DNA from: Pseudopyrenochaeta lycopersici
Taxonomy: Eukaryota; Ascomycota; Dothideomycetes; Pleosporales; Pseudopyrenochaetaceae
Length of the DNA: 64,000 nucleotides
Assembly: GCA_003313425.1 (NCBI GenBank)
Contig: NHZP01000078.1
Location: 124,001 to 188,000, forward strand
Reading direction: 5' to 3'
This document shows positions 4,248-39,710 of this stretch, piece after piece (the first letter of the stretch is position 1; every line of letters starts with the position of its first letter). The translations under genes and the position numbers were made by a program. The notes below the pieces were generated by a model that did no database searches, was not told the origin of the DNA, and saw nothing but the letters and a program-made list of their open reading frames with translations.

Positions 4248-6634
4248 CCCCTTCGCCGGTGGGCATTAGCGCTAGTGAGCATTAGGCCTAGTATTGCGCC
4301 TCCCTAAGATGGCCGAAGTAATACCGATAATCCTTGTTTATATGTAAACAAACAAACTAATCCCTCTAATGTTAGTCTATCATCGCTAATTGGCTAGTGC
4401 TTGCTTTATAATGCCTCGTAAATCAAATGATACTGATTACGTTAATAAAGTCTCACAGAGCAATCCATCAAAGGATCCACCACCACCAGTTCGGACTGTT
4501 CAAGACTTCCCGAAGATAGAAATCCCAGAGAGGGATTTGACACCAAATCATCTCCTTCCAGAGGAAACAGTTAATCCAGCGGCCTTATTTGAGCGGTTTT
4601 TCGATACTCAAATAATTAGTTTACTAGTACAATGCACGAATAGCTATACGACTCAATTCGGAAGCCGATTTATCGAACAAAAGGGCAAGGATTATGACCC
4701 CCAGAATCATCGTCCTTGGACTCCAATGACAACAGATGAAATGTACGCTTACCTAGGTAGGAATCTAATTAATAAAATGCTAGTAAAATGACTTATCTAA
4801 TTAGTTCTAGGGATTGTAATCTTTATAGGTTGCCAACCACAGCCTTCTCAAGAGTATTACTGGAACACAAATCGTGGTAGTGAAAATACTGCTCAATTTG
4901 GGGCTGGGGTCTTTGATCTAGTTCGCGGGGCAATGGGCCTGAAGCGATGGGAACAGATCCACCGCTTTTTCTATGCGTTTGACATAGAGACAATGGTAGA
5001 CGATTACCACTCCGGCAAGGCTCGAGTCCGGCCATTCCATAAAGTTGCTCAACTTGCCGATATCCTTAAATTCCGGTTCAAACTCTACTGGAATGCCTCA
5101 CGTAATCTCGCCATTGATAAGCAAATTATCCGCTTTACAGGGCGAGCATCTGAGATAGTCCATATACCAGGTAAACCTACACCCGTAGGGTTTAAAATAT
5201 GGGCTATTACTGATGGAGGCTATGTTATGGACTTTATGTGGCATGCTAAAGGGGATAAGAAGAAGGGAAATGGGCCACAAGGTATTACTCCAATGTGGAG
5301 AGAGCAAATCTCTAGTGTTACACAGCAATTGGTTCTTAAGCTTGTACAGCGCATCCCAAATCACGGTCAGGGGCACGTTATCTGGCTCAATAACTTATTT
5401 ACTTCCGAATTGCTCCTTTCAATCCTCCGAGACATTGGAGTTGGTAGTGCTGGGACAGTAAGAACAACTAAAACGGCACGAGAAGAGAGGGCAGAGAAGG
5501 AAGCATTGAAAGAATCGCTCCCGGGCGGCATATTCACAGATGCGGATGATCAGGATATAGATCAATATGCTACTCCAGGATTAAAGCGAAAGGCAAGCAG
5601 CCCACCCGATGCCTCTCAACCGCCATCAAAAACCCAGAAAGCTAAGGTAGGGCCTAAGAAAACTGGGCCGAAGGAGGCACCCACTGAGCTAGATCGTGGT
5701 GTTAATCCTTTTCTTGCAGATATAAAACGGCGCCATAAGTCTCAACTTAAATGGGGTACTCTGTATAGTACAACTAGCAAAGACAAAAAGGTCTGTCAAT
5801 TCCTATGGATGGATGCTAGCCCAGTTCTGTTTATGTCTACGATTAACGATGGTACGGATACTGTTGAGAGGCTACGGAAACGACCATCAAACGCACCGAA
5901 GATAGTGAAAGCTGAATGGGGTGATCTATATACAAAGAAGCTCCCTGTACCCGGCTTTATTGATGGATATAACCATAGGATGAATGGTGTGGATATATCT
6001 GATCATATCCGAGATGGTTATAATACTCTACGGCGATGTTATCGAACATGGTGTCCATTATGGCATTATTTGCTTGATACTAGCCTATGTAACGCAGCTC
6101 TCATATGGGCTAAACACCAGCATTATCCGAAAGAGGGCTATGATAGCCTACATCGGGTGTTTCGGATGCAAATCGCCAGAAAGTGGATGGCACTGAATAC
6201 GACTCAAAAAAGGATACAGAATCCTCGTTCTCACCCTCTCAATCCTTACCTAGCTGTCCTGAAACAGGACACTCAGGTGCCATCTCACTCATACGGTTTA
6301 CTAGAGCGTCATGGTTACTGTAAGTCTTGTTCAAGGGCAGGAAGGAAGGCAATAGCACGTATAGAAAGGATAGCGCTAAGCGAGCTATCCGTAAATTCTG
6401 TACGAGGTGTTGCGGGAGCAAAAAAGTCACGCCAACGGCCACCATCCGTAAAATATGGCTGTCTGGGCTGTCAAGTAAACTTATGTAACTTGCCTCAGTG
6501 TTTATTAGAGCATGAGAAATAATTTACTGGTATTTTCAAGGTTTGCAGCCTCATTTTGATCAAGTCATGGTAATCTGATGGGGCTGGTCTGTGCCACTAA
6601 TGCTCACTAGCGCTAATGCCCACCGGCGAAGGGG
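4248..6634 (+). mobile_element. piggyBac-like DNA transposon with perfect 38-bp TIRs
   Basis: The left end (4248-4285, starting CCCCTTCGCCGGTGGGCATT) and right end (6597-6634) are exact reverse complements over 38 bp. The symmetry extends 3 bp further (TAT/ATA). A single transposase gene lies between them. The classical TTAA duplication is not seen: flanks read TTAT on the left and ATAG on the right. Perfect TIRs suggest fairly recent insertion. It sits in the space between the two divergent NLR genes. Confidence 0.88.
4411..6522 (+). CDS. piggyBac-type transposase (DDE_Tnp_1_7), one catalytic Asp replaced by Asn
   Basis: A 54-bp intron (4757-4810) joins two exons into 685 codons and restores the conserved segment YLGIVIFIG. 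Visible family landmarks are AIDKQIIRFTGR (first acidic residue), the LxNLFTS segment, and IDGYNHRMNGVD near the third acidic residue. A Cys-rich tail follows (CKSC ... CLGCQVNLC ... CLLEHE), as is usual at piggyBac C-termini. In the family the second catalytic residue is the Asp of a DNxFTS motif; here codon 5389-5391 is AAT, giving Asn-Asn. The protein is therefore probably catalytically dead although the frame is open. A Lys-rich, Pro-rich linker lies at about 5580-5700. The start is the first ATG, 20 bp downstream of a TTG-initiated extension. Confidence 0.85.
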
Positions 6635-21080: not shown

Positions 21081-21370
21081 ACGCAGACTAGGAGTCACAA
21101 CGCTTGGAACGCTACAGTACATATACGGCTGGTGTTAAGTGCTCTGATGTGTTGTGTGCTGAGTGGTCTAGTGTGCTGAGTGGTCTCGTGTGACGTGTGT
21201 TCCGAGGCCCATCTCTGCATTTTTAGTAACCAGGGTTCGTTGAACAATGACAATTCATATGCTCAATCACCGGTACATAACAAAGCAATCGACTCACTGC
21301 TGTGTCTTTCAGCGAACTCTGCCACATTTCTTCTCACGATCTTCAACTCTTATCCTCACAGAGTTTTGAT

Positions 21371-22368: not shown

Positions 22369-22502
22369 CATGGAGAATAAGTGGTCATTCACAGTAGGCC
22401 AGCAGTCCTTCCTGACATTGTTTAACCCAACCAACAGTATGATTAGGCTGTAAGTATTTACTACGATATATTTGATATTGTACTAAGAAACGATATTTTA
22501 GG
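22369..22502 (+). other. Short coding-like exon and canonical intron leading into the tandem array
   Basis: An ATG at 22369 opens 27 codons of ordinary composition (WSFTVGQQSFLTLFNPTN), ending at a perfect donor GTAAGT (22451). A 52-bp intron with branch TACTAAG ends at TTTTAG (22502). Directly after the acceptor the frame meets a TAG, so alone this would be a 28-residue peptide. The array of intron-like monomers starts 26 bp downstream. Confidence 0.35.
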
Positions 22503-22527
22503 AAGTAGGTTACCTACTAATATTTAT

Positions 22528-24546
22528 ATGCGAGGCTGCTGCTAATGCGGGTGTGTCTGGTGGTGTAGGCTGTAAGTTGATCTGCGACTACTGAGATGCG
22601 AGGCAGCCGCTAATGATTGTGTGTCTGGTGGTGTAGTATGTAAGTTGACCTGCGACTGCTGAGATGCGAGGATGCTGCTAATGCTGGTATGTCTGGTGGT
22701 GTAGCGTGTACGTTGATCTGCGACTACTGAGATGCGAGGATGCTGCTAATGCTGGTGTGTCTGGTGGTGTAGGATGTAAGTTGATCTGCGGCTGCTGAGA
22801 TGCGGGGATGCTGCTAATGCTAGTGTGTCTGGTGGTGTAGGATGTAAGTTGATCTGCAACTACTGAGATGCGAGGCTGCTGCTAATGCTAGTGTGTCTGG
22901 TGGTGTAGCGTGTAAGTTGATCTGTGACTACTGAGATGCGAGGATGCTACTAATGCTGGTATGTCTGGTGGTGTAGGCTGTATGTTGATCTGCGACTGCT
23001 GAGATGCGAGGATGCTACTAATGCTGGCGTGTCTGGTGGTGTAGGATGTAAGTTGATCTGCGGCTGCTGAGATGCGGGGATGCTGCTAATGCTAGTGTGT
23101 CTGGTGGTGTAGGATGTAAGTTGATCTGCAACTACTGAGATGCGAGGCTGCTGCTAATGCTGGTGTGTCTTGTTGTATAGGCTGTAAGTTGACCTACGAC
23201 TACTGAGATGCGAGGCTGCTGCTAATGCTAGTGTGTCTGGTGGTGTAGCGTGTAAGTTGATCTGCGACTACTGAGGTGTGAGAATGCTGCTAATGCTAGT
23301 GTGTCTGGTGGTGTAGTATGTAAGTTGATCTGCGACTACTGAGGTGTGAGACTGCTGCTAATGCTGGTGTGTCTGGTTGTGTAGCGTGTACGTTGATCTG
23401 CGACTACTGAGATGCGAGGATGCTGCTAATGTTAGTGTGCCTGGTGATGTAGCGTGTAAGTTGATCCACGACTACTGATGCGAGGCCGCTGCTAATGCTG
23501 ATGTGTCTGGTGGTGTAGGCTGTAAGTTGACCTACGACTGCTGAGATGCAAGGCTGCTGCTAATGCTGGTATGTCTGGTGGTTTAGCTGGTAAGTTGAGC
23601 TGCAAATACTGAGATGCGAGGATGGTGCTAATGTTGGTGTGTCTGGTGGTGTAGGATGTAAGTTGATCTGCGACTACTGAGATGCGAGGCAGCCGCTAAT
23701 GATTGTGTGTCTGGTGGTGTAGGATGTAAGTTGATCTGCGACTACTGAGATGCGAGGCTGCTGCTAACGCTAGAGTGTCTGGTGGTCTAGCTGGTAAGTT
23801 GAACTGCAAATACTGAGATGCGAGGATGCTGCTAATGCTTGTGTGTCTTGTTGTGTAGGATGTAAGTTGACCTACGACTACTGAGATGCGAGACTGCTGC
23901 TAATGCTAGTATGTCTGGTGGTGTAGGATGTAAGTTGATCTGCGACTACTGAGATGCGAGGCTGCTGCTAATGCTGGCGTGTCTGGTGGGTAGGATGTAA
24001 GTTGATCAACGACTGCTGAGATGTGATGCTGCTGCTAATGCTGGTATGTCTGGTGGTGTAGGCTGTAAGTTGATCTGCGACTGCCGAGATGCGAGGATAC
24101 TGCTAACGCTAGTGTGTCTGGTGGTCTAGCTCGTAAGTTGAGCTGCAAATACTGAGATGCGAGGATGCTGCTAATGCTGGTGTGTCTTGTTGTGTAGGAT
24201 GTAAGTTGGCTTGCGACTACTGAGATGTGAGGTTGCTGCTAACTCTAGTGTGTCTGGTGGTGTAGCCTGTAAGTTGACCCGAAAATACTGAGATGCGAGG
24301 CTGCTGGTAATGCTAGTGTGTCTGGTGGTGTAGGGTGTAAGTTGATCTGCGACTACTGAGATGCGAGGCTGCTGCTAATGCTGGTGTGTCTTGTTGTATA
24401 GGCTGTATGTTGACCTACGACTACTGAGATGCGAGGATGCTGCTAATGCTGGTGTGTCTGGTGGTGTAGGATGTAAGTTGATCTGCGACTACTGAGATGC
24501 GAGGCTGCTGCTAATACTGGTATGTCTGGTGGTGCAGCATGTAAGT
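22528..24546 (+). repeat. About 30 tandem 68-bp monomers, each shaped like a spliceosomal intron
   Basis: The period is 68 bp (donor-like hexamers at 22572, 22640, 22708, 22776 ... 24473, 24541; two or three monomers are 1-2 bp short). In register, each monomer is 65 nt from GTANGT to a YAG, with CTAAT or CTAAC about 23 nt before the YAG, then exactly three bases before the next donor. All 30 hexamers read GTAAGT, GTACGT or GTATGT, and every acceptor is TAG except one CAG. The three spacer bases vary most (GAT, GCT, CGT, TAT, CTG, CTC, CCT, GGT, CAT). The array ends 22 bp before the HET gene's first ATG. Confidence 0.95.
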
Positions 24547-24567
24547 GGGCCTCTGGATCGCTCCTTG

Positions 24568-26553
24568 ATGTGGACGCTACAATCGATAATGACTTGGAAG
24601 CAGTACAACACGTGGGCTCTTGACTTTGACGATGCCTTTACACGCCACCTTCTGTTAGGTTTACCATTACATGCGCGACCTGCTACGGTTTACCCTTGTT
24701 CCTGCTGTAGCGAGATTGTGAATGAAACTCTCACAAACACTACATACAAGGCTAGTCTTTCTGATATGCGTACTTCTGCGGAAAGATGTTCGATCTGCAA
24801 TATGCTCCTCCAAGCATTCCAGCACAGCCGCAAAGATGATGACGGAAATACCTACATAGAGCGAACACGTTCAGCACTCAGAGCAGGAGCTGGAGGCCCG
24901 CGTCTTCTACGGTTTTGTGCGGATCCAGGTCAGCCCCTACGATTCCCCTTATGCACCGAACAGAAATGATACTTATTGCATATCCATGCTACAGAATATG
25001 CTGATTCTAGCGCGCCAATGGGTCTCCCAATTTTCTCTAAACCCGATAACCCTGCACGATTTGCACTGCTTCGCGCATGGCTTCGTTGGTGTGACGAGTC
25101 CCACGGTTGTAACAAGCACCAAGGTGAATCCAAGACAACATTGCCAACCAGAGTCCTCTACGTCGGTGATCCAAAGGGTTCAGGTTACAACTCAGATTGC
25201 GTACGTCTGATTTGTGCCTCGAAAGCAAGTCGGAAAGAATACATCGCATTATCTCATTGCTGGGGTGACCTTTCGGACGAAAAGAAAGAAGCATACTGTA
25301 CCACCCAGAATAATATTGACCGCCGACAGGGAGGATTCAGCATGTCTGAATTACCGAAGACGTTCCGGGACGCTATTATTGTGACCCGAGAGCTGGGCGT
25401 TGCGTATCTCTGGATCGACTCACTCTGCATCATCCAATACGGAGACAATGGCGAAGACTGGAGAAGCGAATCTGGCCAAATGGAAAGCGTCTTCTCGGGG
25501 GCTTACTGTATAATCGCTGCAACGGCGGCTGCCAACTCTGACGCGGGGTTCCTCAAGTGTGGCATAAGCCCTGAGAGTATCTACGTTCAAGATCCCTCTG
25601 GCAAGCAGTTCTATATCAGCACCGACATAGATGATTTCGACAACGACGTGGGGGAGGCACCCATCAATAAGCGAGCATGGGTAATGCAAGAAGGGGTTTT
25701 GGCTCGACGGACTATCCACTTCAGCGCCAAACAAACGTACTGGGAATGTGGGGAAGGGATTTACTGCGAAAACCTTACTAGGCTGATAAGGTACGAGCCC
25801 TACAACACCTGATTCGAAACACTCCTGACAAGGCATTTCCTCAGCCCCAGAAGGGATAAGTATTTTACGCTCGACTCAAACTTCCCGAGCCGGCTCCTCG
25901 CATCAGGCAATAGTCGTACCCTTAACTGCATCTCCTTTCTTTTCCAGGAATACTCGAAGCGAAACCTTACAGTCCCGACTGACAGATGTATTGCCATATC
26001 CGGGTTGGAGGATCGTATCGCAGGCGCCTTAAGATGTCAAAGCAGATATGGCATCTTCCAGAAATACCTTCACAGGAACCTCCTCTGGCAGGGATCTAGC
26101 GACGAGATGAAGCACATTTCGTACGACCATCATGTGCCATCTTGGTCATGGATGGCATATAGTGGAGGCATTCAGTTCATGGACATCCCCTTGGGTGAAC
26201 TTGATTGGATTGATCATCTCCGGTTCGATGAGAAGTGCGAATGCGACCATGCCATAATCTCCAACCTGTGGACATTTCAGAACTGTACGATGGGACTCTA
26301 TGGGCCCCAGTATGCGGTCTTGGATTCCGATGGAGCGAAAAGGGGGTGGATACAGTACGACGTCGAGGGCAGTGAAGACCATCGCAAGGAACAATGTGTT
26401 GTTGTAGGAAGGAAGAGCGATACAGGTATTGAGGAGTACTATGTACTAGTTGTCAGGTCGACCAGTGTGGATGGCGAGTACAGGAGGGTTGGCGTTGGGT
26501 TGATTCAGAGTGACTACGTGGTGGGACAGAGGATCAATGTACGAGTTGTATGA
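24568..26553 (+). CDS. HET-domain (heterokaryon incompatibility) protein
   Basis: Two introns (24929-24994 and 25791-25844, or to 25850 with the alternative acceptor) give about 621 codons. The HET domain shows its usual blocks: YIALSHCWGD (about 203-212), AYLWIDSLCIIQ, then ESVFSGAYCIIAATAA and RAWVMQEGVLARR with YWEC. A Cys-containing N-terminal region (PCSCCSEIV, CSICNMLL) precedes it, as in many HET-only proteins, and a long C-terminal part carries no known domain. HET domains trigger cell death on non-self fusion; the partner of this one is unknown. The start is the first ATG after the satellite array, so the array occupies the 5' leader or promoter. The first donor, GTCAGC, is weak. Confidence 0.85.
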
Positions 26554-35457: not shown

Positions 35458-35975
35458 ACTGTACCATAATAAAGGTGACTGTCGGCCTGGGCTGTATATC
35501 TTAGGCTTGTTTTAGTGGAATGTTAAGCTGGAGCCTAGGAGCCAATCATGATAGCGACAAGCCATATGTGATCAACTCACTAACCACTTGTAATAATGAC
35601 GTGCAACACGGAAACGTCCACCACTCGTGATGACGTGGGCCGTTGGAATCGGGTGGCTGTCGTTAGTGGATGGGATCCGGCCTGCGCCCGTTGTCTTCCC
35701 GACTAATCTGCAGGGAAGTCGTAATGCAGTGTCGCTGTGGGTTACTATGGTGGGGAAGACTACCGGCTGATTCGCTTACTCCAATATGTAAGAAAACCTT
35801 AAATTGACCACCGTGCTATCCACCACTGAGCACCACTCAGCACACTAGACCACTCAGCACACTAGACCACTCAGCACACCACTCCAGCCCGAAAGAAAAG
35901 GAAACGTCCACAGGGTCGAAATGGGCTCTAAGCGTCTAAAATTAGTCAACGTCTACATTTCGCAATCCTAACCAG
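34401..35975. other. Repeat-rich, gene-free segment
   Basis: Contains five imperfect copies of a 20-21-bp unit of the type GCCAGCGTGAATTGTAGCGT (34505-34612), a (GAA)n microsatellite at 35427-35459, and three copies of ACCACTCAGCACACTAG at 35830-35880. That last motif occurs inverted at 21150-21190 (GTGCTGAGTGGTCTAG), extending the relation between the two inverted-repeat regions. No gene recognised. Confidence 0.55.
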
Positions 35976-39260: not shown

Positions 39261-39320
39261 AATTCTTTCACTGTATGAGATAGTCACATGAGAGAGTCAC
39301 GCTTCGTTCCTCAACACTCA

Positions 39321-39440
39321 CCACCACTCAGCGCCACTCACCACCACTCACCATCACTCACCATCACTCACCATCACTCACCATCACTCACCATCACTCA
39401 CCATCACTCACCATCACTCACCATCACTCACCACCACTTA
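39321..39440 (+). repeat. 10-bp minisatellite, about 12 units
   Basis: Units of CCATCACTCA or near variants (CCACCACTCA, GCGCCACTCA) run in exact 10-bp register. It lies just beyond dispersed repeat copy C. Confidence 0.95.
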
Positions 39441-39710
39441 GCATCATATTCATCATGCCAACGTCATCAAAGGTCTTCTCGTCTCGAGCGGTCTAATTCT
39501 AAGTAACCATGTCCTTCATCACTAAGGTAGTATCTCGCAGCATCAGGCCATGTGACTCGTAGCAACAAAGTAAGTGTAGCGTATGTGAAACAACACTCAG
39601 AGAGTAATTGACCCTGGCTTTCTCTTGCCCAAGTATTGCGGCGGCAAATGGTCTATTGGATGGAGAAGATATCGCTATCAGTCAATTGTAGGTAGTTTTC
39701 CAGTTGAATA

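Follow-up and report, generated by a model that had tools for sequence, protein, structure and literature searches.

Structure of the window gene

The region analysed here is a stretch of 64 000 nt from Pseudopyrenochaeta lycopersici (contig NHZP01000078.1 of assembly GCA_003313425.1, positions 124 001 to 188 000 of the forward strand; hereafter the window), in which an array of tandem 68-bp units sits within the coding region of a HET-domain gene. In our model, exon 1 is followed by 32 consecutive 3-nt exons and then by the HET exons (Table 1). The resulting 36 exons give a single open frame of 647 codons plus stop, in which all 32 of the 3-nt exons are whole codons in phase 0. The original prediction, made from the letters of the window alone, had placed the array in the 5′ leader of the gene; instead it is coding, as the frame opened by the ATG at 22370 continues across the 3-nt exons and reaches the HET domain.

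Membership in the HET class is given by PF06985, found at residues 231–381 of the 647-aa model (100.1 bits against a curated cut-off of 22.5). It was the sole domain found in the model, in which neither NACHT nor ankyrin was detected, and an Rfam scan of the 64-kb window gave no match. The first two introns are unlike the repeat unit in sequence, yet each is followed by a 3-nt exon (GCT and GAA). An exon 1 extending to 22449 was dropped as a candidate, i.e. it ends in phase 2, out of frame with HET, and the paralogues share the boundary after ..F[TEQ].

Table 1. Predicted features of the HET-domain gene, in window positions
Feature	Position	Strand	Remarks
Exon 1	22370..22393	+	MENKWSFT, phase 0; the same 8 residues start the Phaeosphaeriaceae sp. 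PMI808 model P0001
Intron 1	22394..22446	+	53 nt, GTAGGC..TAG
One-codon exon GCT (Ala)	22447..22449	+	
Intron 2	22450..22501	+	52 nt, GTAAGT..TTTTAG; not part of the repeat proper
One-codon exon GAA (Glu)	22502..22504	+	
Tandem array	22505..24540	+	30 introns of 63–65 nt, each followed by a one-codon exon, the last being CAT (24538–24540)
Last chain intron	24541..24603	+	63 nt, GTAAGT..GCAG
First long coding exon	24604..24928	+	Starts YNTWALDFDD.., entered in phase 0
HET-domain coding exon	24995..25790	+	PF06985, 100.1 bits
Last coding exon and stop	25851..26553	+	

About 30 tandem 68-bp monomers had been predicted, and Tandem Repeats Finder reports 29.7 copies at 22528–24546 with a period of 68 and 85 % matches. 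While this extent is real, the pattern reaches beyond it, as two further introns with 3-nt exons lie upstream at 22394–22504. When cut at the donors, the array yields 30 units from 22505 to 24540, every one of them with the predicted valid donor and acceptor (TAG throughout, except for one CAG) and with exactly 3 bases before the next donor (30/30). Other claims stood in part. The intron is 65 nt long in 27 of the 30 units and measures 64, 63 and 64 nt in the remaining three; all donors read GTA[ACGT]GT, but GTAGGT in the first unit adds a fourth hexamer to the three proposed; and CTAAT or CTAAC precedes the acceptor in nearly all units, the one at 24269 having GTAAT.

Among the 27 units with 65-nt introns, the bases between units are the most variable, as expected from inspection (diversity 0.493; exon columns, p 0.0025), and the splice signals are conserved, with a diversity of 0.046 at the donor, 0.025 at the acceptor and 0.019 at the branch site versus 0.142 in the other intron columns (signals, p 0.0036). 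The longest YAG-NNN-GTRNGY chain at intron spacing comprises 32 sites in the window gene; elsewhere in the window (59 kb), it comprises 2. With the stop and phase data given below, these signals support the proposal that the intron-like units may be kept spliceable in a multi-exon layout with 3-nt exons.

Array loci across the genome

The genome (62.7 Mb, 188 contigs) was searched with the array DNA, with HET peptides and by pattern. The window array proved not to be alone, i.e. the layout recurs at 18 loci, on C78 (the window), C46 (two), C115, C54, C2, C68 (two), C43 (three), C51, C63, C64, C12, C27, C4 and C13. HET sequence lies behind the array at 17 of these loci, and exon 1 is recognisable at 16, being absent at L017 and L019. 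The number of one-codon exons is 32 in both the window and C46:190k, 33 in C54, 36 in C2, 66 in C51 and 68 in both C4 and C13; 26 were counted in C43:300k and C27, 10 in C46:91k, 9 in C115, C12 and C43:246k, 8 in C68:149k, 5 in C68:177k (decayed) and 3 in C64 (a remnant). Three kinds of unit sequence occur, of 68 bp (the window and most loci), 70 bp (C27 and C4) and 71 bp (C13).

The pattern GTAAGT-N(40-70)-YAG-NNN-GTAAGT-N(40-70)-YAG-NNN-GTAAGT matches 273 times genome-wide (156 forward, 117 reverse), against none for the control. Counted at the array loci, the same pattern gives 243 matches plus 30 in C13, or 156 and 117 by strand, so that every match is accounted for. At least 150 scored matches among 520 candidates in a PF06985 profile search of the genome indicate that most HET genes carry no array. 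At 20 other HET loci, chosen by us from the list of HET matches, neither strand has a chain of acceptor-NNN-donor sites at intron spacing that is longer than 1 (values of 1 or 0); the same simple counter gives 2 to 64 chained sites in 13 array genes.

L017 and L019 (C43:195k and C63:221k) are near-identical and have an unrelated 5′ stretch ahead of the array in place of exon 1. The array gene L014 (C68:177k) has decayed; its exon 1 contains a stop and its letter make-up is unusual, perhaps due to repeat-induced mutation.

Conservation of splice signals

The counts given here for 394 codons rest on 13 non-redundant genes. Excluded were L009 and L010, both nearly identical to the window gene, the decayed L014, and L017 and L019, which have no exon 1. 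By a parse that itself requires such splice sites, the 394 introns ending at a one-codon exon have 390 GT and four GC donors (all GCAAGT), with 335 TAG and 59 CAG acceptors. GC-AG is the commonest tolerated exception among splice sites. The chain introns measure 48–79 nt and none is longer than 79 nt; therefore, no unit has lost a site, as this would leave an intron of about 130 nt. The sole unit seen without an acceptor is in L019, i.e. in a copy lacking exon 1.

Signal columns are less variable than the intron body in all eight arrays compared (p 0.041 to 0.00005), four of which, including that of the window, made up the first run of these column-diversity tests. In each of the eight, just 0–3 intron columns are as diverse as the average codon column, the comparison being restricted to units of modal length (20 of 36 in C2). 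The signals also persist where the units have diverged. In C2, neighbouring units are 65 % alike and retain signals and 3-nt exons, with a diversity of 0.391 in the intron body versus 0.115 (donor) and 0.054 (acceptor). The C13 chain closes with a dozen or so introns that are unrelated in sequence, their exons still being 3 nt long. Here, introns 1, 57–66 and 68 (n=12) show a mean pairwise identity of 0.577 in the intron body versus 0.546 (SD 0.040) for shuffled partners, and all 12 have a GT donor, a YAG acceptor and a 3-nt exon, with a branch motif in 11.

The 3-nt pieces as probable codons

None of the 394 codons is a stop in phase 0, versus 11/381 and 39/381 in the other phases. Column shuffling within genes leads to an expectation of 18.5 stops, and even when each distinct codon of a gene is counted once (133 in total), 6.4 stops would be expected (P(0)=0.0002). 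Exon 1 has a length that is a multiple of 3 in 14/14 genes, although this result is partly by choice, as its end was set visually where the paralogues have a boundary in common (..F[TEQ] followed by GT, and similar). At the other end of the chain, the nearest acceptor opening the HET exon is in phase 0 in all 11 genes with an intact one, which C68:149k, C68:177k and C64 lack. The second one-codon exon encodes Glu in eight of the nine genes compared and Asp in the ninth; this comparison leaves out C12 (where it is Arg), C27, C4 and C13.

Distinct codons of the same gene that differ by a single base form 23 synonymous and 126 non-synonymous pairs (an earlier tally of codon changes covered 10 genes), and with transitions weighted fourfold the depletion of synonymous pairs has a p of 4.5e-5. 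The variability of the codon columns fits diversifying selection on the encoded residue, but a higher mutation rate at the codon bases may be an alternative cause. Arg (78), Glu (69), Leu (37), Asp (35) and Gly (35) are prominent among the 394 residues, and the resulting string is often charged.

The length of the exons was also recovered by unforced methods. When donor-like hexamers are paired with the nearest upstream YAG, the distance is 3 in 262 of 284 cases at 13 loci (near-copies and L014 among them; the accompanying stop count used 10 genes), versus just 4 of 131 when the hexamers lie in other parts of the window. A free dynamic parse, run on 16 loci, returns 3-nt exons in 384 of 435 cases, and in 162 of 162 for C27, C4 and C13, which have other unit sequences.

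Copy-number change and relatives

Where aligned, the flanks of the window gene and of its C46 and C115 copies are 99.6–99.9 % identical (for C46, 302 bp upstream and 2.9 kb downstream), and their chains comprise 32, 32 and 9 one-codon exons, respectively. The C115 chain corresponds to the first six units plus the last unit of the window chain, most of the middle being gone. Between the window and C46, eleven differences were listed over the 32 units, of which a single one falls in a codon (CTC/CTG, Leu in either case). Such numbers between near-identical flanks show that chain length changes by unequal exchange, and faster than the flanks do; since each unit holds one codon, the change stays in frame.

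A tree of the HET core was built from 38 rows, i.e. 16 array loci, 16 public proteins and six non-array loci. L013 and L020, which had no tblastn match, are not included. Of the 20 non-array loci, 14 are likewise absent, 13 for want of a match and one because its match was too short. Three non-array genes fall outside the array genes with strong support. The other three non-array genes, L037, L043 and L045, of which the latter two have long branches, are placed among the array genes at an open fork; therefore, the array genes are not shown as one clade and the number of array origins is not settled.

Among the best 120 matches of each protein search, close homologues come from Pleosporales and also from outside this order. 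The closest relative of the C27 gene in the tree is P0109 of Pyrenochaeta sp. (path 0.03), the model of which begins downstream of the chain. P0001 of Phaeosphaeriaceae sp. PMI808 continues after its MENKWSFT start with a read-through of unit pieces (tblastn to the window array, 5e-9 at best). Of eight public proteins compared with five arrays by tblastn, P0001 matches in pieces and P0030 once, in the HET exon, and the remaining six have no match at 1e-3; with so few matches, unit read-through in P0015, P0030 and P0056 is a reading by eye only. As gene models may thus start past the chain (P0109) or read through it (P0001), chains may be overlooked in other genomes.

Two further proteins carry an uninterrupted charged string in the same place as the chain, i.e. 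P0053 (711 aa, 2528-bp contig) with ..SFFT, NEQELQGYQ.. and the HET exon, and P0133 (669 aa, 2183-bp contig) with ..WEDKSYT, REGFDEE.. and the HET exon. The strings start with NE and RE, as do those of C51 and C68:149k, respectively. P0200 (jgi, 1963-bp contig) matches C4 at 99 % and 96 % with a 95-nt intron in between, the pattern expected of a spliced transcript, and stops short of the chain. In the Boeremia and Coniothyrium models P0061, P0066 and P0047, a long ordinary N-terminal part or a MDHYNDW start replaces the chain.

Interpretation and alternatives

In our view, the array very probably consists of real spliceosomal introns within the HET-gene coding sequence, separated by exons of exactly one codon, and we infer from the genomic sequence that these exons would be spliced in and translated in P. 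lycopersici. Splicing would link exon 1 through the single-codon string (32 codons here and as many as 68 in paralogues) to the HET exons in a single frame. In the resulting HET protein, a variable charged string would stand between a short constant start and the HET domain. The introns would most likely be removed one after another, perhaps during transcription, because an acceptor and the next donor lie 3 bases apart, too close for simultaneous use. Since the unit of intron plus one codon is at the same time the minisatellite monomer, unequal exchange could add or remove codons with the frame intact, and selection would preserve the splice signals (donor, branch site, acceptor) of every intron while allowing or driving variation of the codons. 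Moreover, as every chain exon is 3 bases long and in phase 0, skipping of any of them, by error or in a regulated manner, would remain in frame.

Several points weigh against this interpretation. At C68:149k, HET sequence was looked for after the chain and not found, and in some genes later acceptors in other phases are available. The free parse of the 16 loci also returned 41 exons of 20 nt and 10 of other lengths among the 435; the former arise where some clade-A units offer an alternative TAG 17 nt upstream, and 20 is not a multiple of 3. Clade-A chains were otherwise parsed with the exon length set to 3, and L011 and L015 were re-cut by hand to admit GC donors. A constant exon length is in any case weak evidence alone, because indels would mostly fall in the longer introns. 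Compared with an unweighted expectation of 259:871, the depletion of synonymous pairs is moderate (p 0.016), and third codon positions are less variable in some arrays, which the donor −1 position could explain. P0053 and P0133 are presumed to be RNA-derived only from their short contigs and from the tag ‘lgn’, which may denote assemblies of public read sets. Finally, in the Lepidopterella model P0014, exon 1 is joined directly with the HET exon.

A join of the latter kind would be expected if the splice sites were used but the one-codon exons discarded, either as part of one long intron or by stepwise recursive splicing, the array then acting in both cases on the timing or level of HET expression, and it is also open to the genes described here, both exon 1 and the HET exon being in phase 0. 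However, untranslated 3-nt pieces should show stops, of which there are none, nor would the predominance of Glu in the second piece and of non-synonymous codon changes be expected of discarded exons. A single-step excision would also give no reason for dozens of internal splice sites to be preserved. We regard this alternative as unlikely. That the array is an ordinary minisatellite with chance splice-like motifs, its units alike through recent expansion, can practically be dismissed. It is indeed a true tandem repeat with high unit identity on which unequal exchange acts (32 versus 9 copies), but the internal motifs of a plain minisatellite are unconstrained, whereas here the signal columns are the less variable ones, diverged arrays included, and signals persist in units diverged to 65 % or almost unrecognisable. 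Furthermore, three different unit sequences have the layout in common, with HET sequence behind nearly all arrays.

The original prediction had named an introner as a possible source, and a tandem form of an introner-like element invading HET genes would account for near-identical, complete introns, such elements being present in Dothideomycetes (PMC4457414). However, in four whole-genome searches with array DNA (best candidates scored), all matches listed were at array loci and none was dispersed in unrelated genes. Introner-like elements have a stable predicted secondary structure, and no consistently stable fold was found for one intron from each of eight arrays (z −1.98 to +1.53). This origin is therefore quite improbable.

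Returning to translated one-codon exons, a role of the string in recognition is a hypothesis. It is tempting to speculate, albeit with less than even confidence, that the chain is a device for a hypervariable protein tag, in which length change by unequal exchange, diversification of each codon by selection and alternative inclusion might together provide many isoforms of one HET protein, a cell or strain thereby displaying its own N-terminal string in nonself recognition; many isoforms are possible because any subset of the one-codon exons keeps the frame. HET genes belong to a class tied to fungal self/nonself recognition, and the layout suggests a route to a variable protein segment in which a homogenised repeat is spliced out and one codon per repeat translated. 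With up to 68 consecutive one-codon exons, the chains would also test the limit of what the spliceosome can join across an acceptor–donor gap of three bases, and the genes form a natural series for the order of intron removal, ranging from 3 to 68 exons and from near-identical to almost unrelated introns.

Relation to known systems

The belief that no tandem array of this kind was known is not supported. In the nank (NACHT-ANK) family of Tuber melanosporum, tens of codon-sized 3-bp microexons with alternative splicing have been reported, according to the passages citing that work (PMC3689799, PMC4986451, PMC10197012). Like the truffle genes, which those passages discuss in connection with nonself recognition as an expanded ascomycete family, the genes described here have many consecutive one-codon exons, i.e. 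32 in the window gene and 3–68 in the 13 genes. In contrast, the nank genes encode NACHT-ANK proteins and the microexons are cited as diversifying sensor domains, whereas here the chain precedes a HET domain. Codon-sized microexons as such are thus already known. No description of one-codon chains in HET genes, or as tandem-repeated introns, was found in the literature covered, i.e. titles and abstract openings, with subscription papers mostly outside this coverage. Fungal microexons are described as little characterised, and functional ones as previously undescribed in filamentous fungi, in the portion of PMC11121469 consulted.

Schistosome micro-exon genes, as summarised in an excerpt of PMC10526429, share many short exons that are mostly multiples of three. 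They encode secreted proteins and have 10–20 exons per gene, of 6–81 bp (3–81 is also given) and mostly 15 bp, with introns ranging from about 100 bp to 5 kb between them. The chains described here have exons of 3 nt and introns of 48–79 nt, tandemly repeated in most genes. The introner-like elements of Dothideomycetes resemble the array units as near-identical short introns with complete signals (PMC4457414, in part), but the array introns were found solely in one position of a single gene family. Stwintrons of Hypoxylaceae are closely associated introns with copies similar in sequence, in which one intron interrupts a splice element of another (PMC8469720, as far as excerpted); in our array, each unit is complete and 3 nt lie between units.

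The repeat domains of fungal NLRs are reported, in the sections of PMC4986451 and PMC10197012 consulted, to be highly conserved, to undergo concerted evolution and to gain variety by reshuffling. The NLR repeats (WD40, ANK, TPR) are themselves translated, whereas in the HET genes the homogenised part would be spliced out and one codon per repeat translated. The same sections assign HET domains a function in fungal incompatibility and cell death.

Other repeats

Further tandem repeats were noticed in the window and at the array loci. A 126-bp repeat is present in the window at 163–1095 (7.4 copies, 93 %), and a similar 126-bp repeat (11.7 copies) adjoins the C68:149k array, at 5382–6855 of L013 in reverse-complement coordinates. 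We presume that both resemble the translated TPR-type repeats of NLR-like genes. Short 17-bp tandem repeats occur in the window at 21154–21192 and 35832–35879, with similar ones in L010, L015, L016, L018, L024 and C13; they lie near several array loci, partly in both orientations, and are possibly ends of mobile elements. Lastly, a 10-bp tandem repeat (CACTCACCAT) spans 39315–39446 of the window with 13.2 copies (92 %).
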